This document shows positions 361 through 13,843 of a DNA stretch of 23,147 nucleotides, piece after piece. This stretch comes from a virus, in the IMG/VR virus record IMGVR_UViG_3300013021_000009, positions 1 through 23,147 of that record. The stretch is one strand, 5' to 3'. Below the pieces are notes generated by a model that worked only from the letters and a program-made list of their open reading frames with translations, searched no databases and was not told where the DNA came from. A program made the translations under genes and the position numbers. Numbering within the stretch: the stretch's first letter is position 1; each line of letters opens with the position of its first letter.

Positions 361-434
361 GGTCCGGTAGCTCAGCTGGATAGAGCAACAGCCTTCTAAG
401 CTGTCGGTCGTGGGTTCGAATCCCGCCCGGATCA
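361..434 (+). tRNA. tRNA-Arg (anticodon UCU)
   Basis: A full cloverleaf can be drawn. Acceptor stem GGTCCGG (361-367) pairs with CCGGATC (427-433) with one G-U pair. D-arm stems are GCTC and GAGC. Anticodon stem ACAGC/GCTGT (388-392/400-404) encloses loop CTTCTAA with anticodon TCT at 395-397, which reads AGA. The variable loop is CGGTC. T-arm stems are GTGGG/CCCGC around TTCGAAT. The discriminator is A434 and CCA is not encoded. The last 14 bases, plus C435, are duplicated at 16246-16260, so this gene is the integration target. The 5' part is chromosomal and the 3' end belongs to the attachment core, so integration leaves an intact tRNA. Confidence 0.95.
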
Positions 435-435
435 C
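421..435 (+). repeat. attL core (15-bp direct repeat, copy 1)
   Basis: TCCCGCCCGGATCAC comprises the T-arm 3' side, acceptor 3' strand and discriminator of tRNA-Arg plus one base. An identical copy lies at 16246-16260. A second identical block, CCGCAATTCTT, follows both cores at exactly the same offset (445-455 and 16270-16280). The element therefore carries a mimic of both the tRNA end and the first half of its terminator. Confidence 0.9.
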
Positions 436-440
436 TGAAT

Positions 441-482
441 AAAGCCGCAATTCTTTTATTATTAAAGGGTTGCGGCTTTTTC
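441..482 (+). terminator. Intrinsic terminator behind tRNA-Arg (element-borne)
   Basis: AAAGCCGCAA (441-450) pairs with TTGCGGCTTT (470-479) and runs into five T residues (477-481). The inner CTTT/AAAG can extend the stem. Because it lies inside the element, it probably replaces the chromosomal terminator now displaced to 16266-16304, so the tRNA keeps a proper end after integration. Confidence 0.75.
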
Positions 483-491
483 GTTTAAGGA

Positions 492-527
492 TTGCACCCT
501 GTTTTGCACCCCTAAAAACTTGCACCC
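492..527 (+). repeat. Three direct TTGCACCC repeats upstream of the rightward promoter
   Basis: TTGCACCC occurs at 492-499, 504-511 and 520-527, with start-to-start distances of 12 and 16. The third copy ends three bases before the TTTG of the promoter at 531-562. The same octamer recurs at 6134-6153, 10340-10358 and 16080-16105. Near the att core it could be an integrase arm-type site, but copies at internal promoters argue for a regulator site shared across the element. Confidence 0.7.
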
Positions 528-530
528 CTT

Positions 531-562
531 TTTGACTTGAATTTATTTTATCACTACCTTTG
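531..562 (+). promoter_or_regulatory. Rightward Bacteroidota-type promoter
   Basis: TTTG at 531-534, a 20-base spacer and TACCTTTG at 555-562 match the primary Bacteroidota promoter (TTTG, 19-21, TAnnTTTG). The start site would be near 569. Transcription would pass an intrinsic terminator (602-643) before the ORF at 666. The TTGCACCC repeats sit just upstream of the -33 element. Confidence 0.65.
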
Positions 563-601
563 AAACATTGGAAGCCTTAAACAAGCTTTTGAATTTACTA
601 T

Positions 602-643
602 AAAGAGGGGCCGGCTCAAATGTGAGTATGCCCCTCTTTTTTT
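602..643 (+). terminator. Intrinsic terminator / putative attenuator before the rightward gene
   Basis: AAAGAGGGGC (602-611) pairs perfectly with GCCCCTCTTT (630-639), followed by Ts to 643. The 18-base loop holds a second small stem CTCA/TGAG. It lies only about 33 bases after the predicted start near 569 and 23 bases before the ATG at 666. Either the promoter makes a short RNA of about 75 nt, or the terminator controls read-through into the gene. Confidence 0.7.
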
Positions 644-665
644 GTCTTATCTAAACTCTACTGCT

Positions 666-1040
666 ATGAATCCAGACACATTACAAACTGTGGTTTTTGT
701 TACCTTTCTTATTCAAGTGGCTATACTGATAGCCTTTTTTGTTCTGGTTAATGACGTTCGGGCCATTAAAAAGAAGTTTGGGGCCGATAGGCTTAGCCAA
801 AAAACAGCACTCCTTAAAGCTTTGGAGAAAGCCAAATTCATGAATAAAAAAGATGAGATTGTTTCCATTTACAAGGAACTGGCATTTTTTGAGGTCAACA
901 CTCCAAGCGAACCATCTAAAAAATACCAGCTTTTTGATCTGGAAGAATTTGCCGAAGAAATAAAAAACCACGGTGGGGAAATACCTTCAGGTTTAAGTGA
1001 GAAAATTTCAGAGCTTCAAAGCAAGGTAAATAAGAAGTAA
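666..1040 (+). CDS. Small membrane-anchored protein of unknown function
   Basis: The protein has 124 residues from ATG 666. A longer reading from TTG 642 would start inside the terminator T-run and is unlikely. Residues about 7-27 (TVVFVTFLIQVAILIAFFVL) form one transmembrane helix near the N-terminus. The rest is a charged cytoplasmic-looking domain, lysine-rich at first (RAIKKKFG) and then helical, ending EKISELQSKVNKK. It is the only rightward gene in the element and stands alone under a promoter flanked by TTGCACCC repeats. Regulated single-gene cargo near an att site in satellites often affects host or helper phage, but nothing in this sequence proves that. I do not recognise the family. 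Confidence 0.7.
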   Translation: MNPDTLQTVVFVTFLIQVAILIAFFVLVNDVRAIKKKFGADRLSQKTALLKALEKAKFMNKKDEIVSIYKELAFFEVNTPSEPSKKYQLFDLEEFAEEIKNHGGEIPSGLSEKISELQSKVNKK

Positions 1041-1478
1041 CCGGAACAGCATTTTTTTAAACAACGGGATTCCGTTCTTTTGGCTGGTATGATAACGGTA
1101 TAACGTTTTGATAAAAGGGCGATAATGTTCGCTCTTTTTAATTAGGTGGAATTCCGCCTATTTACATACGGTGGATTCGCCGGTTTTATTTACCCCAAAA
1201 CAGGGGTGTTTCTATTCCGTAGGTTCTACGGGTTTACATACCCCAAATTCCGTGTATGTAAAATCAAAAGATAGTGCTGTGAGAAAATCACACTCCAAAC
1301 AGTCCGATTATCGGATAGTTTCCCCGGTGCAAAATTGCGTTGGCAGTTTATCAGGTAGTTAGATACCGTTGCCGTGTTTCCGGTATCGGTCTGAGAATGT
1401 GTTTTTAGCGGAATTACGATCTTTGTTTAACCGTTGCGGGGATTCCCGTTTCGGTAGGCAGATATGCCTACTGGGAAC
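1041..1478 (+). ncRNA. Hairpin-dense non-coding region, candidate structured RNA
   Basis: No convincing ORF is present. Consecutive stem-loops are: 1063-1076 (AACGG/CCGTT, loop GATT); 1113-1138 (10 bp with one G-U, then T5); 1143-1160 (TAGGTGG/CCGCCTA, loop AATT); 1169-1182 (CGGTG/CGCCG, loop GATT); 1192-1207 (ACCCC/GGGGT); 1217-1231 (CCGTAG/CTACGG, loop GTT); 1233-1262 (TTTACATAC/GTATGTAAA); 1278-1292 (TGTGA/TCACA); 1303-1315 (TCCGA/TCGGA); 1362-1387 (GATACCG/CGGTATC); 1437-1448 (CGGG/CCCG, loop GATT); and 1454-1471 (GTAGGCA/TGCCTAC with GATA loop after the inner pair). The G-T pairs inside stems at 1113, 1143 and 1169 would pair as RNA only from the plus strand. TTTACATAC also occurs as a direct repeat at 1161-1169. 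The stem at 1113-1139 resembles a terminator for the gene ending at 1040. A DNA-level role (origin, packaging site) is the alternative. Confidence 0.5.
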
Positions 1479-1480
1479 AA

Positions 1481-1516
1481 AAAAAAGGGCCTCACTTCTG
1501 AAGTGAAACCCCTTTT
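1481..1516 (-). terminator. Terminator of the long leftward operon (possibly bidirectional)
   Basis: TCACTT (1492-1497) pairs with AAGTGA (1501-1506); GGG (1487-1489) and flanking A residues pair with CCC and TTTT (1510-1516) beyond a two-base internal loop. On the minus strand the stem is followed by a run of eight T (complement of 1479-1486). It is the first strong stop after the last leftward gene (ends 1558). The plus-strand side also ends in TTTT, so it may stop rightward transcripts too. Confidence 0.75.
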
Positions 1517-1557
1517 CGGTAATATAGCAGGACTATAAAGATAATAAAATAGCTCTG

Positions 1558-1881
1558 TTAATCAATCCATTTATCCTCTTCCATGTGTTTATCAACAACC
1601 TTAATCATGATAGCATTTTGATATTTTAAGATTTTCTCCCCCACGGTATCCATAAAATTTGAATCTGCCATTTTCTCTTCAATCTCTTTTATCAGTGCAT
1701 TAGATGGCGACCCCTCCATCACTACTTCAGCAGGGTTGATATTTTCGTGGGAAATCTCATTAAACTTTTTACTTATATCCTCCCATTCTGGATTGCTTTT
1801 TAACAGGTCACTTATCTCTTTATGCAATTCTAAAAAGTCTTCGTGAGACTCTGGAAGGTTGGCTTTATTTTTATTTTTCAT
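1558..1881 (-). CDS. Hypothetical protein, last gene of the leftward operon
   Basis: The protein has 107 residues from ATG 1881. It is acidic and helical, with many Lys, Glu and Asp (starts MKNKNKANLPESHEDFLELH, ends HMEEDKWID), and has no membrane segment or cysteine motif. The leader AAATTTAAATCC just before the ATG is the A/T-rich type seen before other genes here. It follows the HTH gene (ends 1910) after 28 bases and precedes the operon terminator at 1481-1516. I do not recognise the family. Small acidic proteins at the end of phage or satellite operons can be inhibitors of host or helper proteins, but that is only context. Confidence 0.6.
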   Translation of the reverse strand: MKNKNKANLPESHEDFLELHKEISDLLKSNPEWEDISKKFNEISHENINPAEVVMEGSPSNALIKEIEEKMADSNFMDTVGEKILKYQNAIMIKVVDKHMEEDKWID

Positions 1882-1909
1882 GGATTTAAATTTAAAAGGT
1901 TCTTATTTA

Positions 1910-2197
1910 CTATTCAGGAACATTGTGTTCATAATAACTGGCCCGGTTGCTACTCTTTGCCACGCATTCAATTTCTATGCGGTCAATGCGAATTTTGGAT
2001 GTATTGGCCCCGTCTTTGATAAACTTAATTAGTCCCTCTCTTTTCCATCGATCCACAGTCCCACGGCCATACATTTTGCTCGCTTGGTTTAAAGTCAAAT
2101 ATGGCTTTAACTGTCCCAACTCAATCAAAACACGTTTTACTGTTATTTCGGAAAGATCCTCTAACAGCTTTCTCTTTTCATGATCTATAAATTCCAC
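1910..2197 (-). CDS. HTH_17/AlpA-like DNA-binding protein
   Basis: The protein has 95 residues, started at GTG 2197, 11 bases after the previous gene's stop; no in-frame ATG is nearby. An N-terminal helix (residues 1-30) precedes a compact helix-turn-helix-wing at about 33-76: YLTLNQASKMYG, then TVDRWKREGLIKFI and a short wing ending SKIRIDRIEIE. This is the layout of MerR-like excisionase/AlpA domains that bind direct repeats. It could be a late regulator, an excisionase, or the binder of the TTGCACCC sites. The other candidate regulator is the 110-residue protein at 13328-13660. The domain is a sound call; the target is inference. Confidence 0.65.
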   Translation of the reverse strand: MEFIDHEKRKLLEDLSEITVKRVLIELGQLKPYLTLNQASKMYGRGTVDRWKREGLIKFIKDGANTSKIRIDRIEIECVAKSSNRASYYEHNVPE

Positions 2198-2208
2198 AGG
2201 TATAAGGT

Positions 2209-2577
2209 TTAAGCAGATTGTTTTTCCAGTTTTTCCAAAGTCCTAAGTTCGGTAAGGTTGCCGTAGCACTTCTCTATGTTTTCCCACTCCTTACCAATTC
2301 GAGAAAGCATTTTAGTGATAAATGAATTTGCAAAGGTAACATCTGCAACCTCTCTTAATCTCAAATCTTCAACATCGTTAACATTGGTTTGCGGAAATAT
2401 TGGATTGTAATAGGCCATCATTGTTTCCTGAAGGTGTTCTGTTATCTCAGGCCCGCTCATTTGGGTGAATAACTCTTCAGTTAGTGCAACAATGATCCTT
2501 TCACTCTCTTTGATTTGTTTTTTAAGCTGTTCTCTTCTCTCTTCAATTTGCTTTTGAGTTTGTTCTTTTGAATTCAT
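2209..2577 (-). CDS. Hypothetical coiled-coil protein
   Basis: The protein has 122 residues from ATG 2577. Residues 1-45 are a charged helix with heptad-like spacing (SKEQTQKQIEERREQLKKQI), followed by a more globular middle containing MMAYYNPIFPQTNVNDVEDL and a C-terminal helix. It is the first gene of a three-gene cluster (122, 95 and 107 residues) that follows the terminator at 2750-2770. The cluster therefore needs read-through or its own promoter; I see no clear TAnnTTTG between 2580 and 2750. The upstream stretch carries the 10-bp inverted repeat GAGTTCGCAA/TTGCGAACTC. The family is not recognised. Confidence 0.6.
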   Translation of the reverse strand: MNSKEQTQKQIEERREQLKKQIKESERIIVALTEELFTQMSGPEITEHLQETMMAYYNPIFPQTNVNDVEDLRLREVADVTFANSFITKMLSRIGKEWENIEKCYGNLTELRTLEKLEKQSA

Positions 2578-2644
2578 GAGTTCGCAATTTAAAAATGATT
2601 AATAAAAAAACGGTTACATTATTCCTTTGCCTGCTTGCGAACTC
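2578..2644. repeat. 10-bp inverted repeat at the start of the 122-residue gene
   Basis: GAGTTCGCAA at 2578-2587 and TTGCGAACTC at 2635-2644 are perfect inverted copies separated by 47 bases. A partial direct copy, AGTTCGCA, sits at 2801-2808, just downstream of the leftward promoter at 2812-2844. The spacing is too long for a tight hairpin, so a repressor pair or looping site is more likely than a terminator. Confidence 0.45.
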
Positions 2645-2749
2645 TTAAATAATAAGGGTTATTCATGCCATTACAACACGAAAACAGTGGAATTAATGCA
2701 ACCGTCCTATATCTATACGGTTAAAGAAAATCTGTTGACATATAGGCAC

Positions 2750-2770
2750 AAAAAAACCTCCCATTGGAGG
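2750..2770 (-). terminator. Intrinsic terminator, leftward
   Basis: CCTCC (2757-2761) pairs with GGAGG (2766-2770) around loop CATT. On the minus strand it is followed by seven Ts (complement of 2750-2756). It stands about 60 bases past the end of the gene at 2832 and separates the structural block from the last three leftward genes. Confidence 0.7.
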
Positions 2771-2811
2771 CGGCCTATTGGTCACCCTTATTATTTATTT
2801 AGTTCGCACTT

Positions 2812-2844
2812 CAAAGATAGAAATTAAATTTTCACAATTCCAAA
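2812..2844 (-). promoter_or_regulatory. Leftward promoter at the 3' end of the 145-residue gene
   Basis: On the minus strand TTTG (2844-2841), a 21-base spacer and TATCTTTG (2819-2812) match the Bacteroidota consensus. The start would be near 2805, so a transcript would reach the terminator at 2750 after only about 55 nt. It would therefore be a short leader RNA, or an attenuated promoter for the three genes beyond. Confidence 0.5.
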
Positions 2845-3269
2845 TCTAAGCCTGTTAAATCTGAAATTATTTTTGCAGTGCTTATTACCTCATCCCTAAA
2901 ACGCCTTACCACCGTTTGGTTTAACGCCTGTTTGAAGTAATATGACAAAAGCCTTTCTTTGATTCCGGTAAACTCTGAAATTATAGGCCGGAAACCTACC
3001 CTTGCTTTCTTTTTAAATCCGTTTAAATAGTCCGGGTCAAAGAATAGGGCAAAAACAGCCACAAGCAAGGTTATTTCATTTTCTTTGTTACTTTCCGGCA
3101 TACTACCCCGCAAATCTATAAAGGCATCAAATACGGCCCTCATTTGCGTTTTTGTCATTTCTGGAATAATGGGCTTGCAATCTTCCACAAGTTCCGGGTA
3201 AAGGGCTCTAATTTTGGCAATGGTTACCTTTAAATGACTTTCGTAAACATCCATAAGGCTAAAGGGCAT
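2832..3269 (-). CDS. Phage structural-module protein of unknown function
   Basis: The protein has 145 residues from ATG 3269; MDVYESHL five codons later is an alternative start. It is mostly helical, with a hydrophobic middle (LLVAVFALFFDPDYL, about 68-82) that looks like a buried helix rather than a membrane span, and a C-terminal stretch RRFRDEVISTAKIISDLTGL. Its start overlaps the end of the HK97-gp10-like gene by 11 bases, so the two are probably translated together. Position after a gp10-like gene is where head-tail or tail-completion proteins sit in tailed phages, but I see no motif proving that. Confidence 0.6.
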   Translation of the reverse strand: MPFSLMDVYESHLKVTIAKIRALYPELVEDCKPIIPEMTKTQMRAVFDAFIDLRGSMPESNKENEITLLVAVFALFFDPDYLNGFKKKARVGFRPIISEFTGIKERLLSYYFKQALNQTVVRRFRDEVISTAKIISDLTGLDLEL

Positions 3270-3756
3270 TAGTTACACCACCAAGTTTAAAGCTGGTTCC
3301 AAAGTCTTTCCCTTTGGCAAATTTCCGAACACGCGATTCCAGGTCAACCATTGCCACGGTGCTTTGTGAGGTTATTACGTTGTACCCTTTGCTTTCCAAA
3401 TAGGATGCGTATTCCATAGCGGCAAACCCGACTAAGATCCATTTCATGGGAACACTATTTGTCAAAACTTCATTTACAATCTTACCGGTGTCAGTATCCA
3501 GGACCGGCAAAGAAGTTGCAACAACGGCCCCATCATAAACAATGGCATAGCCTATTGAGCTTCTTAAATTTGCTGTCTGGTCGGTATAGTCTCCCTTTGG
3601 AAAGGCCCCGGATATGTTTACCCCGTCCTTTGCATCCCGGGCAAACTCTTCTCCCACTCGTTCCATAATTGAAACAATACCGTGGTGGATATGGTTAAAG
3701 TAGTTTTGTAAATCTCTGTTGATTTCTCTTGCTGTAAAACGTGGATTAAATCCCAT
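3259..3756 (-). CDS. HK97 gp10-like tail-completion / head-tail joining protein
   Basis: The protein has 165 residues from ATG 3756. Three features are typical of HK97-gp10-like proteins: an N-terminal helix with GEEFARDAKDG (35-45), the signature YTDQTANLRSSIGY (57-70) leading into a beta-strand AIVYDG, and the late AMEYASYLESKGYNVI (113-128), which matches the usual A-x-YA-x-xLE-x-G-Y ending. In tailed phages these proteins form the tail terminator or joining ring between connector and tail tube. Here no portal, connector or tube gene accompanies it, so it would have to act on a helper phage's virion or be a remnant. The gene overlaps the next by 11 bases, and a strong hairpin (3773-3802) lies just upstream. 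Confidence 0.7.
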   Translation of the reverse strand: MGFNPRFTAREINRDLQNYFNHIHHGIVSIMERVGEEFARDAKDGVNISGAFPKGDYTDQTANLRSSIGYAIVYDGAVVATSLPVLDTDTGKIVNEVLTNSVPMKWILVGFAAMEYASYLESKGYNVITSQSTVAMVDLESRVRKFAKGKDFGTSFKLGGVTNAL

Positions 3757-3772
3757 TGCTTAGAGGTTTAAA

Positions 3773-3802
3773 GGGCCAAAGTGATAATCTGCACTTTGGC
3801 CC
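3773..3802 (-). other. Strong intercistronic hairpin
   Basis: GGGCCAAAGTG (3773-3783) pairs perfectly with CACTTTGGCCC (3792-3802) around an 8-base loop. On the minus strand it is followed by only TTTAAACC, so as a terminator it would be leaky. It lies between the head-fibre-like gene (ends 3811) and the gp10-like gene (starts 3756), suggesting partial termination or an mRNA-stability element. Confidence 0.6.
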
Positions 3803-3810
3803 CGTGGTGG

Positions 3811-4341
3811 TTAATTTGAAAACGACAAAAGAATGGTATCAGGGATTTGCTCCCTTGAAACCGGAGGAATGCGATTTGCATAAACCGTGCATCGAATAGC
3901 AATCGACAAAGTTTCATCCTCTTCTGCAAAAAGGGATTGATAAAGCAATCCGGTGTGCTTTCCTTCGGTGCTTTCTGAAGACAAAACATCGCCCAGCCCA
4001 GCCGTGATTACTGTAGCAAAGTTTAAAACATCATATTCCTCATTTTCCGTGTCAACACTGGTTATCTCTACCCCTTCGATAGTTGAACCAGCCTTAACAG
4101 TATGTCTTTTTGCGACCTTTACAGTTTGTGCGCTACTGACGGCCTCAAACACTTTGGCGGTTCTTACAAGTCTCGCCTTTCGGGTTTGCTCATCGTAAAT
4201 AAACAATGAACCTGCGGGAATTTCTTCACCCGGAATTAGTCCGGTCATCTCCAAAGAGAAACCGCCTTGTGCGTTTTCAAAATCTACTTGTGAAACGGGA
4301 ATGCCTTCCCTTGATTTTACTCTTTTAAATCCAAGTGCCAT
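3811..4341 (-). CDS. Head-fibre / capsid-decoration-like protein
   Basis: The protein has 176 residues from ATG 4341. The core (about residues 36-90) contains IPAGSLFIYDEQTRKARLVR, then KVFEAVSSAQTVKVAKRHTV and a KAGSTIEG strand. This arrangement (permissible starting value, conversion of a set of labels, then T-x-V-x-V-x-KGH/KRH) resembles head-fibre and decoration proteins that sit on capsid surfaces in Bacteroidota and Gram-positive phages. It is beta-rich, with no signal peptide or membrane span. No major capsid gene is present, so if expressed it would bind a helper's capsid or serve another role. Family assignment is from memory of the pattern and only moderately sure. Confidence 0.5.
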   Translation of the reverse strand: MALGFKRVKSREGIPVSQVDFENAQGGFSLEMTGLIPGEEIPAGSLFIYDEQTRKARLVRTAKVFEAVSSAQTVKVAKRHTVKAGSTIEGVEITSVDTENEEYDVLNFATVITAGLGDVLSSESTEGKHTGLLYQSLFAEEDETLSIAIRCTVYANRIPPVSREQIPDTILLSFSN

Positions 4342-4398
4342 GATAATTTGATTTTAATGATAAAAAATAATTGATTGTTGGGTTAGGGTTAAGGGTGG

Positions 4399-5100
4399 TT
4401 AATGAATAGCTTTCAACCATTCAGGATCCATATGAATTTGCTCTCCTGCCCCATAGTTGAATAAATAACCCTTGTGAGCACTACCGGGCATAACTGATGC
4501 CGGGATTCCGTTGGGTGCGTATTCTTTTGCCATCCGCTGAAGCTCCTGGAGTTGTTTCTCTGTCTCTTCTGCCAGTTCAAAAAACTTTTTCCGTGATTCA
4601 GAGTTAACAAAAACAGAACACTCGTCTTCAAGTGCTTTTTCGTCAAAGGTTACTTTCCCATCCTTGAACTGGAAATATTCCCAGTTCAAACGGCGAAGAA
4701 ACCCGGCTGATATTCCTTCCATAAAAACACGCTGAATGCCCCGGTGTTGTTCTGCCACCTTTTCCTCCCATCTGTCAAATGGTGCATCCACCGCCTCCCA
4801 AAGTTTTGCAGCTAAAACTTTATTTTTAGTTGCCTCCTGAATATCAGATTCCATCTTTTCCAGATATTCATTTTTTACCTGGCTTAGATTGTTGTTAATG
4901 ATTGCCCGGAAAACTTTGTCGGTTGCTTTACCAATTCCCAGCTCTTCGTATTGGTCAACCGCTGTTTGAAGTATTCCCAAAGATCTCTCATAGTCTCCTT
5001 TTAGTTGTCCAAATTTGAAGTCATCAAAATGCACTCTCTTTGGTGCTTCTTTGGTTTTCGTGGCCTCTGTGGCCTTTGTTTTTGCTTTTGTTTCTGCCAT
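4399..5100 (-). CDS. Phage-module protein of unknown function, helical
   Basis: The protein has 233 residues from ATG 5100. The N-terminus is a disordered Lys/Thr/Ala tract (MAETKAKTKATEATKTKEAP); the rest is helical, including a Gln/Glu-rich helix (EETEKQLQELQRMAKEY, about 176-192), and ends with a Gly-rich stretch GYLFNYGAGEQIHMDPEWLK. At 233 residues it is short for an HK97-fold capsid, and it lacks the features I would expect of one (delta domain, E-loop). A scaffold or minor virion protein is possible. It lies between the 80-residue gene and the head-fibre-like gene. The ATG is preceded by a perfect A/T palindrome TTTTAAATTTAAAA. Function unknown. Confidence 0.6.
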   Translation of the reverse strand: MAETKAKTKATEATKTKEAPKRVHFDDFKFGQLKGDYERSLGILQTAVDQYEELGIGKATDKVFRAIINNNLSQVKNEYLEKMESDIQEATKNKVLAAKLWEAVDAPFDRWEEKVAEQHRGIQRVFMEGISAGFLRRLNWEYFQFKDGKVTFDEKALEDECSVFVNSESRKKFFELAEETEKQLQELQRMAKEYAPNGIPASVMPGSAHKGYLFNYGAGEQIHMDPEWLKAIH

Positions 5101-5120
5101 GATTTTAAATTTAAAATTGA

Positions 5121-5363
5121 TTAATAAGAAGAATTATTTCCACCGGTGGCCCACGCTTCAATGGATGCAAGTGTGTATTTCTCGTAGGCTTCGGCTTGTG
5201 CATCAGTCAGGGGGATTTCTGCAGTTGTTACCACCTCCGGATCATGAAGCTGTTTGAAAAGTTCAGATTCGGTATCTCTGAGCATTTCAATTCTTGCTCT
5301 GGTCGCTAACTCTCCGTTACCTCTTACAAGGTCTTGGATTTGTCTTTTAGAAATTGTTTTCAT
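5121..5363 (-). CDS. Small hypothetical protein
   Basis: The protein has 80 residues from ATG 5363. It is hydrophilic and helical (starts MKTISKRQIQDLVRGNGELA; contains PLTDAQAEAYEKYTLASIEAW). It lies 20 bases before the 233-residue gene and about 48 bases after the 74-residue gene, so it reads as part of the same transcript. No family is recognised; small helical proteins between terS and capsid-related genes are common in phages. Confidence 0.55.
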   Translation of the reverse strand: MKTISKRQIQDLVRGNGELATRARIEMLRDTESELFKQLHDPEVVTTAEIPLTDAQAEAYEKYTLASIEAWATGGNNSSY

Positions 5364-5393
5364 CTTTGTAATTGTTTATTGATTAGAAAATAC

Positions 5394-5417
5394 CCGGTAG
5401 GATTATTGTCCTACCGG
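5394..5417 (-). other. Hairpin overlapping the end of the 74-residue gene
   Basis: CCGGTAGGA (5394-5402) pairs perfectly with TCCTACCGG (5409-5417) around TTATTG. The stop codon of the upstream gene (5411) lies inside the stem. On the minus strand it is followed by GTATTTTC, a weak T-tract, so it is a leaky terminator or a stability element. Confidence 0.6.
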
Positions 5418-5635
5418 CCGTTAATTGCGTTGGTTACTTCTTCAGCATCTCTTATGGCCTCTGAAGTGATAGGGATAACATTCTTTCTGCTTTGCATCAT
5501 TGCAAGGAACGTATCCCCGGTTTTTGTTGAAAATACAGGTGGCTCGTTAGCTTCCTTCGGGTTTATCTCCCCAGCCTGAATTCGTTTAAGGAATTCGATT
5601 TTCTCTGACTTGGTCAATTGGTCAACTCTTTTCAT
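5411..5635 (-). CDS. Small hypothetical protein next to terS
   Basis: The protein has 74 residues from ATG 5635, four bases after the small-terminase stop (5640-5642). Sequence features: KSEKIEFLKRIQAGEINPKE near the start, a central STKTGDTFLAMMQSRKNVIP and a hydrophilic end. The close spacing means it is probably co-translated with TerS and might be a partner, for instance a packaging modulator. That is inference only; no family is recognised. Its stop codon is buried in a 9-bp hairpin. Confidence 0.6.
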   Translation of the reverse strand: MKRVDQLTKSEKIEFLKRIQAGEINPKEANEPPVFSTKTGDTFLAMMQSRKNVIPITSEAIRDAEEVTNAINGR

Positions 5636-5639
5636 TTGC

Positions 5640-6110
5640 TTACTCCTTTTTTTGATCTGAATTATTTGTACTATCTGGATATAATCCGGCTATAATTCTG
5701 TTAAGGTCTTCCTCTGGCATCTTTTCAAATTCATGCCCTAAAACCTGTTTATCTCTCCAAACATTCGGCTTTCTATTTTTCAGCCAAAAGATTTGCGCGG
5801 TGGTGTCCGGCACAACCTGTTTAACCGTCTCCTTTTCTTCAACCAGCTTGCCGTTTTTTTTCTTCTTTTCGGTTTCGGTGTACTCATACCCCAAAGCCCT
5901 TTTTAAAAGAGAATTTTCCACCTGTATGTCAACCGGGGCTTTCCCACGCTTCAGAGCCTCTTTAAATTCCGGGTATTGCTCCACATACTTGTAAAAGGTT
6001 CCATTGCTTACTCCCAGCCTTTTCCTTATTTGCTGGTCTGTTAGGCCCTCCCTTGCGTACCCTTCAGCGAGTAAAGGCCATGTTTGCGGATCGTACTTTG
6101 TTTTTGCCAT
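5640..6110 (-). CDS. terS: Terminase small subunit
   Basis: The protein has 156 residues from ATG 6110. Residues 18-45 form a helix-turn-helix (GLTDQQIRKRLGVSNGTFYK) of the kind small terminases use to recognise pac or cos DNA. Residues 52-75 are an oligomerisation-type helix containing the common ALKRGKAPVD pattern. Residues 102-121 hold PDTTAQIFWLKNRKPNVWRD, a strong small-terminase signature (P-x-x-x-A-x-x-FWLKNR-x-P-x-x-WRD). No large subunit (ATPase plus nuclease) is encoded here, so this protein would need to redirect another phage's TerL, as terS of packaging satellites does. TTGCACCC half-sites lie 24-43 bases upstream of the ATG, which suggests regulation separate from the tape measure. 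Confidence 0.8.
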   Translation of the reverse strand: MAKTKYDPQTWPLLAEGYAREGLTDQQIRKRLGVSNGTFYKYVEQYPEFKEALKRGKAPVDIQVENSLLKRALGYEYTETEKKKKNGKLVEEKETVKQVVPDTTAQIFWLKNRKPNVWRDKQVLGHEFEKMPEEDLNRIIAGLYPDSTNNSDQKKE

Positions 6111-6133
6111 TGTTCTCTTGTTTTTCGTTGTCA

Positions 6134-6153
6134 GGGTGCGTCTAAGGGTGCAA
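6134..6153 (-). repeat. Paired TTGCACCC-type sites in front of terS
   Basis: On the minus strand, TTGCACCC (6153-6146) is followed 12 bases later by the variant ACGCACCC (6141-6134), so the repeats stand one helical turn apart. The terS ATG is at 6110. No clear TAnnTTTG is visible upstream, so whether they lie at a promoter or in a leader is open. Confidence 0.55.
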
Positions 6154-6228
6154 CTCCTTTTGTTTGGTTTAATACTCTCAGTTTTTAAAGGGGCTTTGGC
6201 TTGTAGTTTATCGTCCCGTATGGATGAT

Positions 6229-6429
6229 TTAAACCTTTTCCGGCCTTAAAACTCGTTTTCTCATTATCGCTCTTCGCCTCATTTGCTCAATTTCCTTTTT
6301 CCGGTGCCGCTCCTGGTTGCGTTCAATGTATGCTTTACGCTCTTCGGAATGAATCCAGTTGTCTTTGAGCAACTGATAAAGGTCATCTCTAAGATGAACT
6401 GGAATAGCTTCAATAAAATCTGCTAACAT
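6229..6429 (-). CDS. Small basic hypothetical protein
   Basis: The protein has 66 residues from ATG 6429. After MLADFIEAIPVHLRDDLYQL it becomes very basic (HSEERKAYIERNQERHRKKE, then MRRRAIMRKRVLRPEKV), suggesting nucleic-acid binding or disorder. It lies 128 bases after the tape-measure stop and 118 bases before terS. The family is not recognised. Its position between tape measure and terminase has no counterpart in ordinary phage gene order. Confidence 0.5.
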   Translation of the reverse strand: MLADFIEAIPVHLRDDLYQLLKDNWIHSEERKAYIERNQERHRKKEIEQMRRRAIMRKRVLRPEKV

Positions 6430-6457
6430 GACTTTTAATTTTAAAGGGTTTGTGATT

Positions 6458-6483
6458 GGGAACAGGCGGCCAAGCCTGCTCCC
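6458..6483. other. Hairpin after the tape-measure gene
   Basis: GGGAACAGGC (6458-6467) pairs with GCCTGCTCCC (6474-6483) with one A-C mismatch. No T-tract follows on the minus strand; the plus-strand side has CTTTTGATT. It is an mRNA structure between tape measure and the 66-residue gene rather than a clear leftward terminator. Confidence 0.45.
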
Positions 6484-6557
6484 TTTTGATTAGAACATTT
6501 GCCGATACCTATTTTTCAAGCCGGGGCCGTCTCTAATGTGGTTCATTGCTTACCTGT

Positions 6558-9500
6558 TTAAAGTCCTTTAGCTTTTAAGGGGTCGGAATTTTTGTCGGAA
6601 TTTTTGTTTGACTTCAAAACGTTAAGTTTGTTATCAATGCTTTCCAGGTGCTTGTTGTACCGCGTATTCGCCGCAATCTCTGACTGGTACCGGATTGATT
6701 CATTCATTATCCGTAAACTTTCCGCCTGATTAATTCGGATAGCGTTCATTTGTCCGCCGATCAATGAGGCGGTTCCCTCTGAAACTCCCTTTACTGCACC
6801 TGTTAAAGGGTCTTCCGATGCGCTGCCGTCAAAGATTGAAAAACCCTCTTCCTTAGCTGCTTTTTGCGCTTCTTCGAGTAGCTTTTTTACATCACCAACC
6901 CTCACCGCAGCATCTTTGGTAAAGTCACCTATTAAGCCTAAAGCACTTTGATAGCCTCCACCAGCATAAGCCTGTTCAAAGTCTTCCCCAAATTGATTGA
7001 GCAAAGGCCCCATCACCTGGTTTACAACTTCCCCGGCAATCATATTCTCAAGAATCTCTTCCACGCTGTCTCCAAAGGCGGCGGCCGCGTCTGTTCCTTC
7101 CTCAAATGCTGTTACAAGTGCATTTTTCAAATCGTCTCCCATCATGCCAACCAACTCTTGGCTCACTTGCTTCATTTGCTGTTCAGCTTCTTCCATTTTG
7201 GTTTGCCAGTCAATGGTATTCTGAAGCAAATTTTCTGTTTCCTCATTAAGTAAACCTTGCTCAATAAGTGTATTGGCATAATCAATATCTAACTTTCCGG
7301 TTTCATCAGTTAACTTCTCGTGCTGGCTTAAAAGGTTAGCCATCACCTTTTCCTCTTTTTTACCGAAAAGACCGCCTAATATTGCGCCGGCTGGCCCCAA
7401 AGCCGCGCCCCCTGCAACCTTACTCCAATCTGTCACATCTTTTGTTCCTACCTGAACAGTTCCTTTTTCGCTAAGGTCGTTCATAGCCTCCTGGTAACCT
7501 TGTGTCGCATCTTTGTAAGCTTCGGCCGCATCCGACATTCGCCCGACATAATCTGTCAAAAAAATACTTTCGTTGAGTTCGGTTTGAAGTCTTAATTGTT
7601 CGTTGAGGCTTAAATTGTACTGATTCTGAAGTGCATTAACGGAATGATAAAAGGCCTCTTCAGCTGCTTTACGCTCTTTGGATGCGTTTATTAAGCTTAA
7701 TGTAAAATCAGTTAATCTTTGCGCACCCGCAGATGCGGCCCCTAAATAGTCACCCGATGCGGCCATTTTTGCCATATTCCCGGCACTCCCTACCGTGTCC
7801 GCAATGGTCATCATAACGTTGCCAAGTTCCGCATTAATACCTCCAACGGCTTTGGCAATATCCTGCATTATGTATGCTATTTGTATGGCATTTTGTCCGA
7901 ACTCATCCATCCTCTGGAGGTCTAAAGCTGACTGCAAAGCTTGCCCGGCTTCCTCCCATTTGCGTTTGTAAGCATCCAGATTGGCTAAATCTTTGGAGTC
8001 TGGGACGGCTGGTGTGCCAACTTTTGCCCAAGAGCTTTTTAGTTCGTCTGGAACAGCCTGCCTGGCATCAAGAGTTAATCCCTCAGCTGCGGCCATTTGG
8101 TAAATCGCCATTTTGGCCTGAACGTTATCAGCGTATGCCTCCAACTGTTTTAAAAGAAAATCTTCCAGGCTCTGTCCTTGGTCCAGTAATTGGGAGTTGT
8201 GTTCTTTTATGGCTGCAACATCTTCCTTCCTGGCTGTGCGCAAGGCCCCAAAATACTCTTCGTAAGCTTTCTTTTGCTCTGATAGTGATTTTTCAAAAGC
8301 TTTGACATCAAAAGGCCCGGTTTTTTCTCCTCCTCCATCTTCACTACCACCAGATATAATATCCTCAATCTGTTTGTTTATTGCCTCAATATCCTTTTTC
8401 GCCTTTTCATACCCTTCTTTAGTTTCTGGCAATTGCATTGTGATACTTCCAAAGGATTCGTATTTTGCCAATTCCTTTTGAAGTCCTCTTCTTTGCTTCA
8501 TAAGGGCCGCAACCTCTTTCCCATAATCAACAAGGTCTTTTTGATATTCCAGGTCTTCAAAAAGACGGTCGCGCCTTTCCTCAAGTCTCTTTTGTTGATT
8601 ATACCTTTCGTTTGAATTAATTTCCCCCTCCCTGTATTGCTGTTCAATATTTTGGGATTCCGTAAGGATGCCAGACAATTCATTTTCAAGAACCTTTAAT
8701 TTTATGGTTTTCTCAAGGCTTTTCCCATATTCATCAATGGTGCTTTGGAGCGTGGTGATTGAAGCGTGTTCCGCATCTATATTAGAAAGAAGGTCGGGGT
8801 ATTTTCTATTCAACTCCTCAACAAGTTCAACCCTCCTTTCACTTCCTGGCTTAGCTTCTGCCAATTTCCTTTTGTACATATCGAGCATTCTGTTTTCATG
8901 CTCCATTTTGGAATTAACTTCCCCCGTAACATCTGCCAATCTCTCAACCTCACTAGCTGCATCTTTGGTTTCGGTATTAAAAACAGCCAAATAAGTAACC
9001 AAACCAGCAACGGCGGCGGCCAATAAACCCCAGGGATTGGCTTTTGTTACCAAATTGAAGGCGGCCTGTGCATCCTTCGCGGTTCTGATCTGTTTTACCA
9101 GACTGCCCCAAACCTTTATGGATTCCAATATATTGCCTGACTGTCTGGCAATGGCTCCCAGTGCCAAAGCGGCCCGATAGGCTCCATAAGTGGCAATAAG
9201 AACTTTCAGGGTGTCAATGATAGTTTCATAATTCTCCACCAAGGTTTTCAAACCGCCAATTCCGGCGTAAATCATGCCTTCATTGCTTTCCCCAACTTCG
9301 TTAAGCATACGGTCCCACGCGTCCCCTAAATTGGAAACCTGACCAGTGAGTGAACCAGATTGCTTTTCCATTAGGTTGAAAAATTGGCCGCCCTCATTGG
9401 TCATGTTCTTAATTGCAGCTTGCAACTCTTCAAATCCAATTTGGCCCTGTTCGGCCATTTTGTAGATCTCTTTGTCAGTAGCTCCGACTACTTTTGCAAG

Positions 9501-10043
9501 CTCTGAAATTATAGGAATACCCCTTTCGGCAAACTGGTTTAACTCTTCGGCCTGCATCTTGCCCTTAGCTGAAACTTTACCGTAAGCTTGTATAAGGTCA
9601 GTAACCGGAACGGATGCACCGGCGGCAAGGTCACCCAAACGGCGTAAACTTTCGGTTACTTGGTCGGCTGGTTCTTTAAATGCCAGCAACCTCTTTGCAC
9701 CTTGCCCCAGCTCTGTTAATGAAAAGGGGGTTTTGGCTGCCATTTCTACAACCTCACTCATTAACCGGTCCGCTTTTTCTTTGCTCCCCAGCATCGTTTG
9801 CAACGCAATATCCAGCTGTTGAAACTCCCCCCGGACTTGGATAACCTGATCTAAAAATCCTTTTGCGGCTGTGATTGAAAAGTACCCGGCCATTGCCGCA
9901 CCGATTCTTTTAAAGGTACTATCAACCTGGTTCCCCTGATTTTTCACGTCCTTTGTGAATTTAGAGATTCGCTGGTTCATCTCTCTTATGTCTCTTTTTA
10001 CCTGCTCGCCGTCAATTTCAGCGTGCCATACCAAATTTCCCAT
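6558..10043 (-). CDS. Phage tail tape-measure protein
   Basis: The protein has 1161 residues from ATG 10043, by far the largest product of the element. The N-terminal region (about 70-240) carries the tape-measure signature: GEFQQLDIALQTMLGSKEKA, then MAAKTPFSLTELGQGAKRLL, DLIQAYGKVSAKGKMQAEEL and QFAERGIPIISELAKVVG. Residues about 280-360 contain hydrophobic helices (LIATYGAYRAALALGAI and GLLAAAVAGLVTYLAVF). Long coiled-coil stretches follow (about 370-650). A Gly/Ala-rich region (about 865-895) and another coiled region lead to a C-terminus rich in Asn, Lys and Ser. In Siphoviridae- or Myoviridae-like tails such a protein sets tail length and passes DNA into the host. No tube, chaperone, distal tail or baseplate gene is nearby, and it precedes rather than follows terS, which is an inverted order. 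It is intact, with no frameshift. Confidence 0.9.
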   Translation of the reverse strand: MGNLVWHAEIDGEQVKRDIREMNQRISKFTKDVKNQGNQVDSTFKRIGAAMAGYFSITAAKGFLDQVIQVRGEFQQLDIALQTMLGSKEKADRLMSEVVEMAAKTPFSLTELGQGAKRLLAFKEPADQVTESLRRLGDLAAGASVPVTDLIQAYGKVSAKGKMQAEELNQFAERGIPIISELAKVVGATDKEIYKMAEQGQIGFEELQAAIKNMTNEGGQFFNLMEKQSGSLTGQVSNLGDAWDRMLNEVGESNEGMIYAGIGGLKTLVENYETIIDTLKVLIATYGAYRAALALGAIARQSGNILESIKVWGSLVKQIRTAKDAQAAFNLVTKANPWGLLAAAVAGLVTYLAVFNTETKDAASEVERLADVTGEVNSKMEHENRMLDMYKRKLAEAKPGSERRVELVEELNRKYPDLLSNIDAEHASITTLQSTIDEYGKSLEKTIKLKVLENELSGILTESQNIEQQYREGEINSNERYNQQKRLEERRDRLFEDLEYQKDLVDYGKEVAALMKQRRGLQKELAKYESFGSITMQLPETKEGYEKAKKDIEAINKQIEDIISGGSEDGGGEKTGPFDVKAFEKSLSEQKKAYEEYFGALRTARKEDVAAIKEHNSQLLDQGQSLEDFLLKQLEAYADNVQAKMAIYQMAAAEGLTLDARQAVPDELKSSWAKVGTPAVPDSKDLANLDAYKRKWEEAGQALQSALDLQRMDEFGQNAIQIAYIMQDIAKAVGGINAELGNVMMTIADTVGSAGNMAKMAASGDYLGAASAGAQRLTDFTLSLINASKERKAAEEAFYHSVNALQNQYNLSLNEQLRLQTELNESIFLTDYVGRMSDAAEAYKDATQGYQEAMNDLSEKGTVQVGTKDVTDWSKVAGGAALGPAGAILGGLFGKKEEKVMANLLSQHEKLTDETGKLDIDYANTLIEQGLLNEETENLLQNTIDWQTKMEEAEQQMKQVSQELVGMMGDDLKNALVTAFEEGTDAAAAFGDSVEEILENMIAGEVVNQVMGPLLNQFGEDFEQAYAGGGYQSALGLIGDFTKDAAVRVGDVKKLLEEAQKAAKEEGFSIFDGSASEDPLTGAVKGVSEGTASLIGGQMNAIRINQAESLRIMNESIRYQSEIAANTRYNKHLESIDNKLNVLKSNKNSDKNSDPLKAKGL

Positions 10044-10058
10044 GTTTTTTTAGTTTAG

Positions 10059-10325
10059 TTAGTTATTACTTGGTAACGGCAGATCCACCCATGAAGGCAC
10101 ATCTGAAAGGGTTTGTAACATCTCTTGAAAAAAGATTATATCGTGTTCAATCTGCTTTATGCGGATTCTGTTTTTATCTCTATTGAGTAAAAGCATTGAA
10201 ACCTCATGTGCCTTTTCCTGAATGACCTTTTCAATATTTATTATTCTCAGATTCCTTCTCACTTCATTCAGGTAGTTAAAATTCCCAGTAATCAGCTGGC
10301 CGGGTTTTATTGTTGGATTTTTCAT
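10059..10325 (-). CDS. Small hypothetical protein, first gene of the tape-measure operon
   Basis: The protein has 88 residues from ATG 10325. A longer reading from TTG 10358 would translate through the TTGCACCC sites and is rejected. It begins MKNPTIKPGQLITGNFNYLN and is helical in the middle (RDKNRIRIKQIEHDIIFF). Fifteen bases separate its stop from the tape-measure ATG, so it is the first gene of that transcription unit. In tailed phages the gene just before tape measure is often a tail-assembly chaperone, but size and position are the only support for that here. Confidence 0.55.
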   Translation of the reverse strand: MKNPTIKPGQLITGNFNYLNEVRRNLRIINIEKVIQEKAHEVSMLLLNRDKNRIRIKQIEHDIIFFQEMLQTLSDVPSWVDLPLPSNN

Positions 10326-10339
10326 TTTTTTCGGTTTTC

Positions 10340-10370
10340 GGGTGCAAATAGGGTGCAACTTTCAAAATTA
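10340..10370 (-). promoter_or_regulatory. Tape-measure operon promoter with two TTGCACCC sites at the start point
   Basis: On the minus strand TAATTTTG (10370-10363) fits the TAnnTTTG box. It is followed by TTGCACCC at 10358-10351 and 10347-10340, 11 bases apart. The first copy sits on the predicted start site, a classic repressor position. The nearest -33 TTG (10396-10394) has a 23-base spacer, a little long. The ATG at 10325 follows. Confidence 0.6.
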
Positions 10371-10447
10371 TATTATTAACTTACTCTGTCTTTCAATTAC
10401 TTAACCTGTTTTTATTTCATCCTTAGCAGACTTGAACCCTGTTTTTT

Positions 10448-10475
10448 GCCCCGGAATTGGCTATAATTCCGGGGC
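10448..10475. other. 11-bp perfect GC-rich hairpin between two small genes
   Basis: GCCCCGGAATT (10448-10458) pairs with AATTCCGGGGC (10465-10475), loop GGCTAT. It stands just past the end of the 77-residue gene (10483). On the minus strand it is followed by AAAAAAC, not T, so it is not a standard leftward terminator. Its role is unclear; it may block or shield RNA. It lies upstream of the tape-measure promoter. Confidence 0.6.
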
Positions 10476-10482
10476 GGGTTTT

Positions 10483-10716
10483 CTATCCTTCAACCTCTTT
10501 GATAATGGCCTTTAAGCCTTTTACCATTTGCTTAGCTTCTTTAATGGATATGGAGGTTACAATCTCTTTTGTCTCGTCCAAGTCGGAGACCACGAATGTG
10601 ATATCAGGTTTTTGAGGGATCCCATCCAGGTAAGGGGTTGTTTTCTGAAAGGTCATTTCCACGTCCATTGTGTTTTCTGGTTGGTAAACCGTGTGTTTTG
10701 ATTTGTGCTTTTTCAT
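10483..10716 (-). CDS. Small hypothetical protein after the helicase gene
   Basis: The protein has 77 residues from ATG 10716. It starts MKKHKSKHTVYQPENTMDVE; the second half (TFVVSDLDETKEIVTSISIK, then KQMVKGLKAIIKEVEG) looks like an alternating strand-helix fold. It follows the helicase stop by 69 bases and ends before a strong hairpin, so it probably closes the replication operon. The family is not recognised. Confidence 0.55.
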   Translation of the reverse strand: MKKHKSKHTVYQPENTMDVEMTFQKTTPYLDGIPQKPDITFVVSDLDETKEIVTSISIKEAKQMVKGLKAIIKEVEG

Positions 10717-10785
10717 TGCTTTTGATTTATTTGGTTAAAAATTGATTGAATTCTGTTTTTTAGGCCTCCACATTCTCCACGTTGT

Positions 10786-12105
10786 TTAATATGGTGCGGC
10801 CCCATCAGGTGTATGGATTATGTCATAAAATTTCGTTATTGTCTCATTGTGTTTAGTCACCGCGCCCCCGATTTTACCATCCCGATTTTTTGCGAAATAG
10901 AAATATGCTTTGCCCTTTTCGTCTATTGCTTTGGAATCGTAATAAATGGGTCGATGTGGAAAGACCACGATATCTGCATCCTGCTCAATAGCCCCGGATT
11001 CGCGAAGGTCTGAGAGTATGGGTTTTTTATCAGGTCTGTTTTCAGGCCCCCTGTTCAACTGTGAGAGCAAAAACACCGGCAAATCAAACTCCTTTGCAAT
11101 GCCTTTCATGGTTTTGGATATTTCAGCCACTTGTTGTTCTCTGGGAAGGCTCCTGTCTCCTTTCATTAACCCCAAATAATCCACAACGATTGCTTTAATG
11201 CCGTGCTGCTTTTTGTAGATTTTCGCTTTGGCTTTAACGTGTCCGAGAGATACGGCCGGTGTGTCATCAATGTAAAGTCCCAAATCCTGAACGTGTGAAA
11301 CAGCTTCATCCAAAACGCCCCATTGATTGGCGGTCAATCGGTCAAGGTCATAACCCGAAAGGCCCGATTCCCTTTGTAAAACCCTTGTGGTAAGTTTGCG
11401 GGCTGTCATTTCCAACGAAAAGAAAAGAACCGGGCCGGCCGTGCTGGCAATGTGTATCGCTTCATGAAGTGCAAACGCTGTTTTTCCCATAGATGGCCGG
11501 GCAGCAATTATTATCAAAAGACCGTTTTCCCAAACTGGCACAAATTGCCGGATAGCTGCTAAAGAGGGTTTAACTCCATATTGTGGCGTATTTTCGCTTT
11601 GTTGGCGGTCTCTTATACTTTCGATTGTATCGGCCACATTCTTTTTAAAATCTTTAATCTGCGATCTGTTTTCCACCTCATCCGTCACACGGTCAACCAA
11701 TCGGGTAGCTCTATCAATGAAATAATCCAAATCATTACTGGGGTCCGTTCCCAATTTATCCAAGCGTCTTATTTCAGTTACTAATGTGCGGCGTATGGAA
11801 TATTCTTTGATGATTCGGGCGTGATACTCAATATGTGCGGCGGCTGCTACGTCTGCCATTAAGCCGGTAACCTCAAAAGCTGACATCTGGCTTTGCTGCT
11901 TTTTGAGTTGAAAGATGACCGATGCAATATCTATCGGGGTGTTTTCTTTAAAAAGGTTTTGAATAGCCTCGTAAACCTCTGAATGCTCCTTTTGGTAAAA
12001 ATCTGATGCACTCAGTATGTCAGTGACTTTCAGGTAAGCGTCTGGCTCAATTATGAGCTGACCTAATACTTTTCTTTCGGTTTCTATGTCGTGTAGGTTT
12101 TCCAT
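10786..12105 (-). CDS. dnaB: Replicative DNA helicase, DnaB family
   Basis: The protein has 439 residues from ATG 12105, close to the usual DnaB length (about 450-470). The N-terminal domain (1-110) has the DnaB start ETERKVLGQLIIEPDAY and KEHSEVYEAIQNLF. The RecA-like domain has Walker A ARPSMGKTAFAL (202-213), Walker B AIVVDYLGLM (305-314) and the downstream LSQLNRGPENRPDKKPILSD and DLRESGAIEQDADIV, all conserved in DnaB. It unwinds DNA ahead of the fork as a hexamer. It follows the initiator gene by nine bases, matching the O-then-helicase modules of many temperate phages and satellites. Having its own helicase lets the element replicate outside the host's DnaA-DnaC control. Confidence 0.93.
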   Translation of the reverse strand: MENLHDIETERKVLGQLIIEPDAYLKVTDILSASDFYQKEHSEVYEAIQNLFKENTPIDIASVIFQLKKQQSQMSAFEVTGLMADVAAAAHIEYHARIIKEYSIRRTLVTEIRRLDKLGTDPSNDLDYFIDRATRLVDRVTDEVENRSQIKDFKKNVADTIESIRDRQQSENTPQYGVKPSLAAIRQFVPVWENGLLIIIAARPSMGKTAFALHEAIHIASTAGPVLFFSLEMTARKLTTRVLQRESGLSGYDLDRLTANQWGVLDEAVSHVQDLGLYIDDTPAVSLGHVKAKAKIYKKQHGIKAIVVDYLGLMKGDRSLPREQQVAEISKTMKGIAKEFDLPVFLLSQLNRGPENRPDKKPILSDLRESGAIEQDADIVVFPHRPIYYDSKAIDEKGKAYFYFAKNRDGKIGGAVTKHNETITKFYDIIHTPDGAAPY

Positions 12106-12114
12106 TGTCTATGT

Positions 12115-12795
12115 CTATGCGGGTGAATATTCCAAATAGTTAATGTCTGCTTTCTCCTGTTCGGTGGATGAGGTAATAATCTCATCGTTCCATGATTCAC
12201 CGTTAAGGTAAGTAAGCGGGTTTTTTCTGTATTGCTTATCAGGTGTTGATGTGATATAAGCCGGTAACGTCTGAAAGATTTTTTCTTTATCTGACTGGCT
12301 TAGTCTCTTCCACTTTGCAAAACATTTTTTTCGATCCTTCTTTTTGTCGTATTGCGTCCAAAACTTCTCAAAATCGCGTGTTAATACTTCTTTACCTTCT
12401 TTACCTTCTTTAGTAGTGGTCGTTTGTTGGTCGTTTGTTGGCTCTTTTGCTGGTCGTTTTGCTGGTCGCTTGGCTTCTCCTTCGCTCTGGTAATCTTCCC
12501 ATTTACAAATAGTTACAACGCTAAATTTGTTGGTCGTTTTGATGGCTATTTCGTTGGTCGATTTTAAGCGATTTAATGAAGTGCGAATTTGTCGTTCTGA
12601 TAACTTCAATTCTTTGGCTAATCTCTTCCTCCCGGTTATTAACTGTCCGGGCTGCAACGCGATACCCTGCCAACTATTTGCTTCAAAACTCGCATTTAGC
12701 AAAAGGTGTATAAACACTCTAAAGGTGTTGGCGTCATCGTACCACTCCCATTCTGTGAGTTTTCTGAAAAGTTTTATGTAACCTCCGTTTTTCAA
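12115..12795 (-). CDS. Replication initiator, phage O / DnaD-like
   Basis: The protein has 226 residues from TTG 12795; no ATG fits and the first residues (MKNGGYIKLFRKLTEWEWYD) match the conserved N-terminus of such proteins. Residues 1-95 form a winged helix (RLAKELKLSERQIRTSLNRL, then TNKFSVVTICKWEDYQ). Residues 100-135 are a low-complexity linker (AKRPAKRPAKEPTNDQQTTT). Residues 135-205 hold a domain starting FEKFWTQYDKKKDRKKCFAK and ending YRKNPLTYLNGESWNDE, common in phage replication proteins near helicase genes, which suggests helicase contact. The DNA of the linker carries the iteron-like repeats (12417-12563), like lambda ori within gene O. It lies 10 bases after the 70-residue gene and 9 before the helicase. 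Confidence 0.75.
   Translation of the reverse strand: MKNGGYIKLFRKLTEWEWYDDANTFRVFIHLLLNASFEANSWQGIALQPGQLITGRKRLAKELKLSERQIRTSLNRLKSTNEIAIKTTNKFSVVTICKWEDYQSEGEAKRPAKRPAKEPTNDQQTTTTKEGKEGKEVLTRDFEKFWTQYDKKKDRKKCFAKWKRLSQSDKEKIFQTLPAYITSTPDKQYRKNPLTYLNGESWNDEIITSSTEQEKADINYLEYSPA
12417..12563. repeat. Iteron-like repeats inside the initiator gene (candidate origin)
   Basis: Seven copies of TGGTCGTTT or close variants start at 12417, 12428, 12439 (TGGCTCTTT), 12451, 12463 (TGGTCGCTT), 12531 and 12555 (TGGTCGATT). Spacings are 11, 11, 12, 12, 68 and 24, near whole helical turns. Read on the coding strand the copies fall in all three codon phases (phase 0: 3, 4, 5; phase 1: 1, 6, 7; phase 2: 2), so the protein alone does not explain their conservation. 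Lambda's origin has the same layout inside gene O. Confidence 0.65.
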
Positions 12796-12805
12796 TTCAA
12801 AGCGT

Positions 12806-13018
12806 TTAGTAGATTACAAGTTTTTCAAGTTCTTTCGTTAGCCGGAAAGGGCTTCTCTGCCATTGCTTAAGAAGTTCTTCAGCTCTTTTCCGGTCGGGGG
12901 TAATGGTGCCGGGTAGTATATGATATCCAAGTGCTACCCCCCTGGTAGCGGTATCAATCTCCATTACATGATTGATTAGTCCGGCGTCAACGGTTGCAGC
13001 CACACAATAGTATATCAT
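12806..13018 (-). CDS. Small hypothetical protein of the replication operon
   Basis: The protein has 70 residues from ATG 13018, whose ATGA overlaps the previous stop by four bases, a coupling signal. It starts MIYYCVAATVDAGLINHVME and ends PFRLTKELEKLVIY. A GGAGG ribosome site (complement of 13024-13028) lies just ahead, one of the few clear ones in the window. No family is recognised; conserved position between a winged-helix gene and the initiator suggests a replication role, untested. Confidence 0.6.
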   Translation of the reverse strand: MIYYCVAATVDAGLINHVMEIDTATRGVALGYHILPGTITPDRKRAEELLKQWQRSPFRLTKELEKLVIY

Positions 13019-13660: not shown

Positions 13661-13662
13661 GA

Positions 13663-13714
13663 CGTTGTATGTTTAATTGTGATTAACTTGATTCGTTACC
13701 ACAAACATACAACG
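13663..13714 (-). promoter_or_regulatory. 12-bp inverted repeat spanning the promoter of the HTH operon
   Basis: CGTTGTATGTTT (13663-13674) and AAACATACAACG (13703-13714) are perfect inverted copies separated by 28 bases. The right arm covers the -7 box TATGTTTG (minus strand, 13709-13702). The left arm ends two bases from the ATG at 13660. No good -33 is visible. A second small inverted repeat, CTTTAA/TTAAAG (13716-13732), lies just upstream. It looks like an operator pair for the gene's own product or a helper-phage protein. Confidence 0.6.
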
Positions 13715-13793
13715 ACTTTAAGTTAGTTAAAGAATTGATTGACAGTTACTTATCTAAAAGTATTTAGACTTTTTTAGATTTTAGGCATAAAAA

Positions 13794-13813: not shown

Positions 13814-13843
13814 CAAATAGTTGTATTTTAGATAAGTTTTCTG

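Follow-up and report, generated by a model that had tools for sequence, protein, structure and literature searches.

Positions 1041 to 1478 of this DNA (a stretch of 23,147 nucleotides, the window) hold one potential hairpin after another, and they raise the question of whether they make up an RNA and, if so, what such an RNA might do. The initial annotation had proposed a run of about 430 bases of consecutive hairpins, and folding bore this out. When pair span was limited to 50 nt, these approximately 440 bases (the array) could form 15 small hairpins, with a folding z score against shuffles of -6.7 on the plus strand and -4.1 on the minus strand. Folded whole, 1041-1520 gave -163 kcal/mol (z of -5.3), and 0 of 100 shuffles equaled it. 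Raw local folding energy was uninformative for ranking loci because of G+C content; among 240-nt segments over the 23 kb, the array was in the strongest few, and 2561-2960 was stronger. There was no coding signal in the array, as the earlier reading had held. One small ORF (1171-1362) was rejected as coding by inspection, because the homologous arrays described below differ there by whole hairpins.

The array lies at the edge of an integrated element (421-16306, 15.8 kb), which sits in a stretch of chromosome between a tRNA-Arg (TCT) gene (361-435, plus strand, found by ARAGORN and Rfam) and a partial repeat of the tRNA end. The 3' end of the tRNA gene (421-435) is the integration site, and the att repeat at 421-484 recurs at 16246-16306 with 76% identity. 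The element encodes a tyrosine integrase (14737-16038), a DnaD-like helicase loader (12115-12795), DnaB (10786-12105), a tape measure protein (6558-10043), a small terminase (5640-6110), a neck-like protein resembling HK97 gp10 (3259-3756), an excisionase-like helix-turn-helix (HTH) protein, and a decoration-like protein. The scanned genes gave no match to a large terminase, a portal, or a clear major capsid protein, and the only head-family match was a weak one, to the decoration-like gene. An att site, an integrase, replication genes, and an incomplete set of virion genes, the marks of a phage satellite, are all present, and from its sequence the element looks like a phage satellite of Bacteroidota. 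No resident helper phage was apparent in the genome, in which there was one weak TerL-like match (22.7 bits).

Besides two near-identical copies of this element, IMG/VR yielded two relatives distinct from it, L013 (3300037722_001720) and L030 (3300027711_000359), both integrated in tRNA-Arg. Identity to the window element is 69% for the L030 integrase, 65% and 49% for the small terminases, and 58% and 52% for the neck proteins; the proteins common to the elements are only about 25 to 70% identical. The L030 element (436-12026, 11.5 kb) has both att sites, with 62-nt repeats at 98% identity, and a similarly reduced gene set. Therefore, a degenerate prophage is less likely than a phage satellite. 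(The three appear to be a family of tRNA-Arg satellites in Bacteroidota, 11 to 16 kb long, with a small terminase and a neck-like protein and without a large terminase. In two of them, the window element and L013, a tape measure gene lies upstream of the small terminase.) Like SaPI-type islands, these elements have an integrase, a replication module, and their own small terminase within 11 to 16 kb, with no TerL or capsid gene seen. However, the elements described here are from Bacteroidota and carry DnaB, neck-like, and (window and L013) tape measure genes.

Both relatives have a diverged array at the same edge of the element as in the window (L013:10630-10866, minus strand; L030:1149-1330, plus strand). 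The L013 and L030 arrays have in common a 72-nt block at 83% identity, and all three arrays contain AACGG-N4-CCGTT-CTTT and ACCCC-AAAACA-GGGG. Hairpin number and order vary, from about 5 to 15 hairpins. In the window, on the plus strand, the stem and flank of hairpin 1 (AACGG-GATT-CCGTT followed by CTTTTG, 1063-1076) are kept in 3/3 arrays, and the core of the ACCCC-AAAACA-GGGGT hairpin (1192-1207) is found identically once in L030 and twice in L013. A TAGGTGG-AATT-CCGCCTA hairpin (1143-1160) has an AATT counterpart in L013, with C-G there and U-G here. It is followed by CGGTG-GATT-CGCCG (1169-1182), and 1209-1247 is a diverged tandem copy (72%) of 1161-1199. Within that copy lies CCGTAG-GTT-CTACGG (1217-1231), and TTTACATAC...GTATGTAAA (1233-1262) is a diverged copy of the ACCCC module. 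Farther on are GTCCGATTATCGGAT (about 1301-1315), GCGGG-GATT-CCCGT (1436-1449), and GTAGGCA-GATA-TGCCTAC (1454-1471).

The initial annotation had named covariation among homologues as a check. In the collections searched, arrays turned up in two further elements, which makes only three independent arrays. Covariation inside the array is thin because most shared stems do not change: one 3-bp stem showed two double changes and a second stem showed one (counted by hand in three sequences, fewer than a formal test needs). When all three arrays were compared with phages by distant blastn, there was no match, and DNA searches of the genomes of 100 relatives and of 395 genomes of the class gave chance matches only, the best of which (L118) was coding. 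The array unit had no second site in the host genome and none in the 100 relatives. The pattern ACGGRWTTCCGTTCTTTNG had 31 matches in 84,980 genomes, apparently coding or chance and none with a surrounding array, and matches to TACCCCAAAACAGGGG in IMG/VR beyond the three elements look like chance. Relatives of the integrase, small terminase, neck protein, or loader (G303, which carries a full prophage in tRNA-Arg, G109, G1071, MT835951, MT836782, and MT836499) lacked the motifs.

Three identical G-GATT-C tetraloops had been reported, together with an AATT and a GATA loop. All are present, the GATT loops at 1068-1071, 1174-1177, and 1441-1444, and GTCCGATTATCGGAT adds a fourth GATT loop. The plus strand of the window array has four GATT-loop hairpins, compared with 0.23 expected in shuffles, and at least three identical tetraloops occurred in 0.05% of dinucleotide shuffles. 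The motif was named beforehand from the window alone, and therefore counts in the homologues are a test, of which L030 is the independent part. The recurrence held in L030, with three GATT-loop hairpins compared with 0.04 expected (0/2,000 shuffles reached three), but not significantly in L013, with one compared with 0.10 (P of 0.09). Hairpin 1 is homologous across the elements, so L030 adds two further cases rather than three. These other two have no obvious homology to those of the window, and one of the L030 GATT hairpins pairs otherwise in the minimum-energy fold. In a scan of fetched DNA totaling 2.25 million strand-bases, GATT hairpins clustered most densely in the window array, the L030 array, and a tandem repeat in an unrelated metagenome-assembled genome (MAG). 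(A Gemmiger MAG contig, L046, has tandem GC-rich hairpins with GATT-type loops at 1429-2698, a repeat family apparently unrelated to the satellite.)

G-T pairs had been taken as support for an RNA read from the plus strand. This is favored by the direction of the predicted promoter described below, by the GATT loops (on the minus strand, one in the window and none in L013 or L030), and by the 16 G-U pairs that the window array contains. However, L013 and L030 fold equally well or better on the minus strand. Therefore, the strand is supported but not settled.

The sequence leading into the array has a common plan. Running inward, 3/3 elements have a tRNA terminator, three TTGCAmCC repeats, a predicted TTTG-N20-TAnnTTTG promoter, and a terminator-like hairpin (hairpin A). 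In the window, the three direct repeats TTGCACCC (492-527, plus strand), whose TTGCAmCC is kept in both relatives, are probable arm-type integrase sites. Alignment predicts a promoter, TTTG-N20-TACCTTTG (531-562, plus strand), with a spacing of 20 in 3/3 elements, which we take to be of the Bacteroidota type. Hairpin A (window 602-639, plus strand; L013:10893-10935; L030:598-640) ends in a U-tract and has an invariant apex, CTCA-AAWG-TGAG. Its lower stem differs in sequence but keeps its pairing, with both-side changes at several pairs. (It might be a conditional terminator or a protein-recognized antitermination hairpin.) The array had been described as flanked by terminator-like stems. Downstream, a bidirectional terminator-like stem (1482-1516) does adjoin it, closing both the array and a convergent operon, but the upstream stem at 602-639 is separated from it by a 132-amino-acid ORF (642-1040, plus strand; probable ATG at 666 and one probable membrane segment).

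The array probably represents a genuine satellite RNA that has not been described before. Its variable hairpin number and order, its invariant hairpins, and its repeated loop argue for recognition hairpin by hairpin rather than by a single precise fold. Our preferred but tentative reading, to which we give a probability of roughly 0.4, is that it is a functional plus-strand satellite RNA that acts through its hairpins by multisite binding. From the features of the locus, we infer that a plus-strand transcript would start at about 569, pass hairpin A as a candidate conditional terminator and then an optional cargo gene, and end in the hairpin chain, up to the terminator at 1482-1516. On that strand, the repeated GAUU loops would be offered to a binding partner, protein or RNA, that would be titrated or recruited, with a presumed effect on the helper phage or the host. 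The sequence features suggest such a multisite RNA, and the proposal that the array is a protein-binding sponge is consistent with them; a packaging role, raised at the same time, has no specific support.

CsrB- and RsmZ-type RNAs are a few hundred bases of consecutive hairpins with a recurring loop motif, and they titrate a protein. The array likewise has back-to-back hairpins with a repeated loop. However, its motif is GATT rather than the ANGGA of the CsrB type (its loops are GATT, AATT, and ATTT, and a GGA string spans the closing base in several hairpins), and CsrA (PF02599) is absent from the host genome, which is 99.99% complete. Therefore, CsrA cannot be the partner, and a CsrA sponge is ruled out. 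That the RNA titrates some other GAUU-loop-binding protein, of the host or the helper phage, for control of host or phage expression in this CsrA-less host is a more specific idea that we consider rather unlikely. The host genome encodes two RRM_1 proteins. RbpB, an RRM protein, binds RNA globally in Bacteroides, with a preference for single-stranded regions (PMC11697453). Because of that preference, a protein of the RbpB kind is, by analogy, only a candidate for the partner.

Since ORF 642-1040 separates the array from the stem at 602-639, the array may be the 3' untranslated region (UTR) of the 132-amino-acid gene. Tandem weak terminators and RNase-blocking hairpins would then end or stabilize the cargo transcript and insulate it from the convergent operon. 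The array lies directly 3' of a cargo ORF in the window and in L030, and the convergent operon terminates on its far side. Between 400 and 1700, the plus strand has five terminator-like sites compared with 1.2 expected (three of them within the array), and the minus strand has none. However, no gene precedes the array in L013, in which a lipoprotein ORF comes after it. An ORF before the array in two elements and none in the third would fit either a noncoding RNA invaded by cargo genes or an RNA that forms the 3' portion of the cargo message. Furthermore, termination does not require invariant stems or a recurring GATT loop, and a strong terminator already exists at 1482-1516. We therefore consider a 3' UTR or insulator rather unlikely. 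(The ORFs at this edge are mutually unrelated, as in a cargo hot spot: a membrane protein at 642-1040 in the window, an HTH-like protein at L030:660-1118, and the lipoprotein at L013:10195-10578.)

The array could instead work as DNA, with inverted repeats to which a protein binds, or with hairpins that are extruded, and have a role in integration, excision, replication, or packaging. It is near att in 3/3 elements, AACGG-N4-CCGTT and ACCCC-N6-GGGG, whose stems are invariant, are palindromic as DNA too, and L013 and L030 fold without a plus-strand bias. However, the distance to att varies by about 400 to 500 bp through inserted cargo genes, the AAAACA loop and the CTTT 3' flank are kept in one orientation, and the GATT loops are strand specific, which makes a DNA element quite unlikely. 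Functionless, rapidly expanding palindromic repeats would account for the variable array length and for the duplication of 1161-1199 as 1209-1247. This explanation is very unlikely, because the same hairpins are kept in elements whose shared proteins have diverged so far and because the unit is missing elsewhere in the host genome and in 100 relatives.

GOLLD and ROOL are large structured phage RNAs that occur near tRNAs and form cages, with functions that are not known (PMC12286853). The array is also phage related and strongly structured, extends over hundreds of bases, and lies beside a tRNA gene. The initial annotation could not match it to either one, and covariance models agreed: with Rfam, the tRNA alone was matched in the window, at gathering and at permissive (E up to 5) thresholds. 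Therefore, the array is not ROOL or GOLLD, and a large ornate RNA of that kind is extremely improbable, since those RNAs have a fixed pseudoknotted fold whereas the array is a simple hairpin chain of variable length, and its three versions, which differ in hairpin number and order in the predicted secondary structures, keep no single architecture.

All three elements have a second structured region, element B (window 2577-2827, minus strand; L013:8930-9175; L030:1660-1920). A promoter-like TATCTTTG is followed by a leader of approximately 250 nt with internal terminators, in which one sequence occurs three times (forward, inverted, and forward), the last copy directly before a start codon. The leader also has AATAAGGGTA/TACCCTTATT pairing and an invariant TGTAATGGC. 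Element B has the strongest folding z score in the window (-6.0) and no Rfam match at the gathering threshold, and a search of the 2.9 million viral contigs of IMG/VR with its pattern gave these three elements only. Its layout could be that of a switch or of a C4- or IIR-like antisense leader.

For the array, the nearest functional precedent appears to be the noncoding RNA of the PLE satellite of Vibrio cholerae. The IIR transcript of PLE and the small RNA SviR are said to be the same RNA. The most abundant PLE transcript is noncoding (PMC7567579), and the conserved SviR binds phage transcripts (PMC12987554). Like SviR/IIR, the array is satellite encoded, intergenic, apparently noncoding, and kept across a satellite family. 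However, it comes from another phylum and satellite family, with no common sequence known, and would be an analogue rather than a member. Inverted repeats flank IIR, which also has complementarity to gene leaders. Neither feature was seen for the array, which was compared with the leader of element B, and element B itself is closer than the array to the IIR architecture. (Complementarity between the array and the element B leader was not in excess in the window and was within about one standard deviation of shuffles in L013 and L030.)

To our knowledge, satellite-encoded regulatory RNAs come from very few satellite families, and the roles of structured phage RNAs are largely open. If our preferred reading of the array as a multisite binding RNA is true, then a second, unrelated satellite family would have a compact hairpin RNA with a repeated loop. 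Its predicted promoter and leader hairpin make array expression directly testable. The array would also provide a defined pulldown bait in Bacteroidota, whose RNA-binding proteins differ from the classical CsrA.
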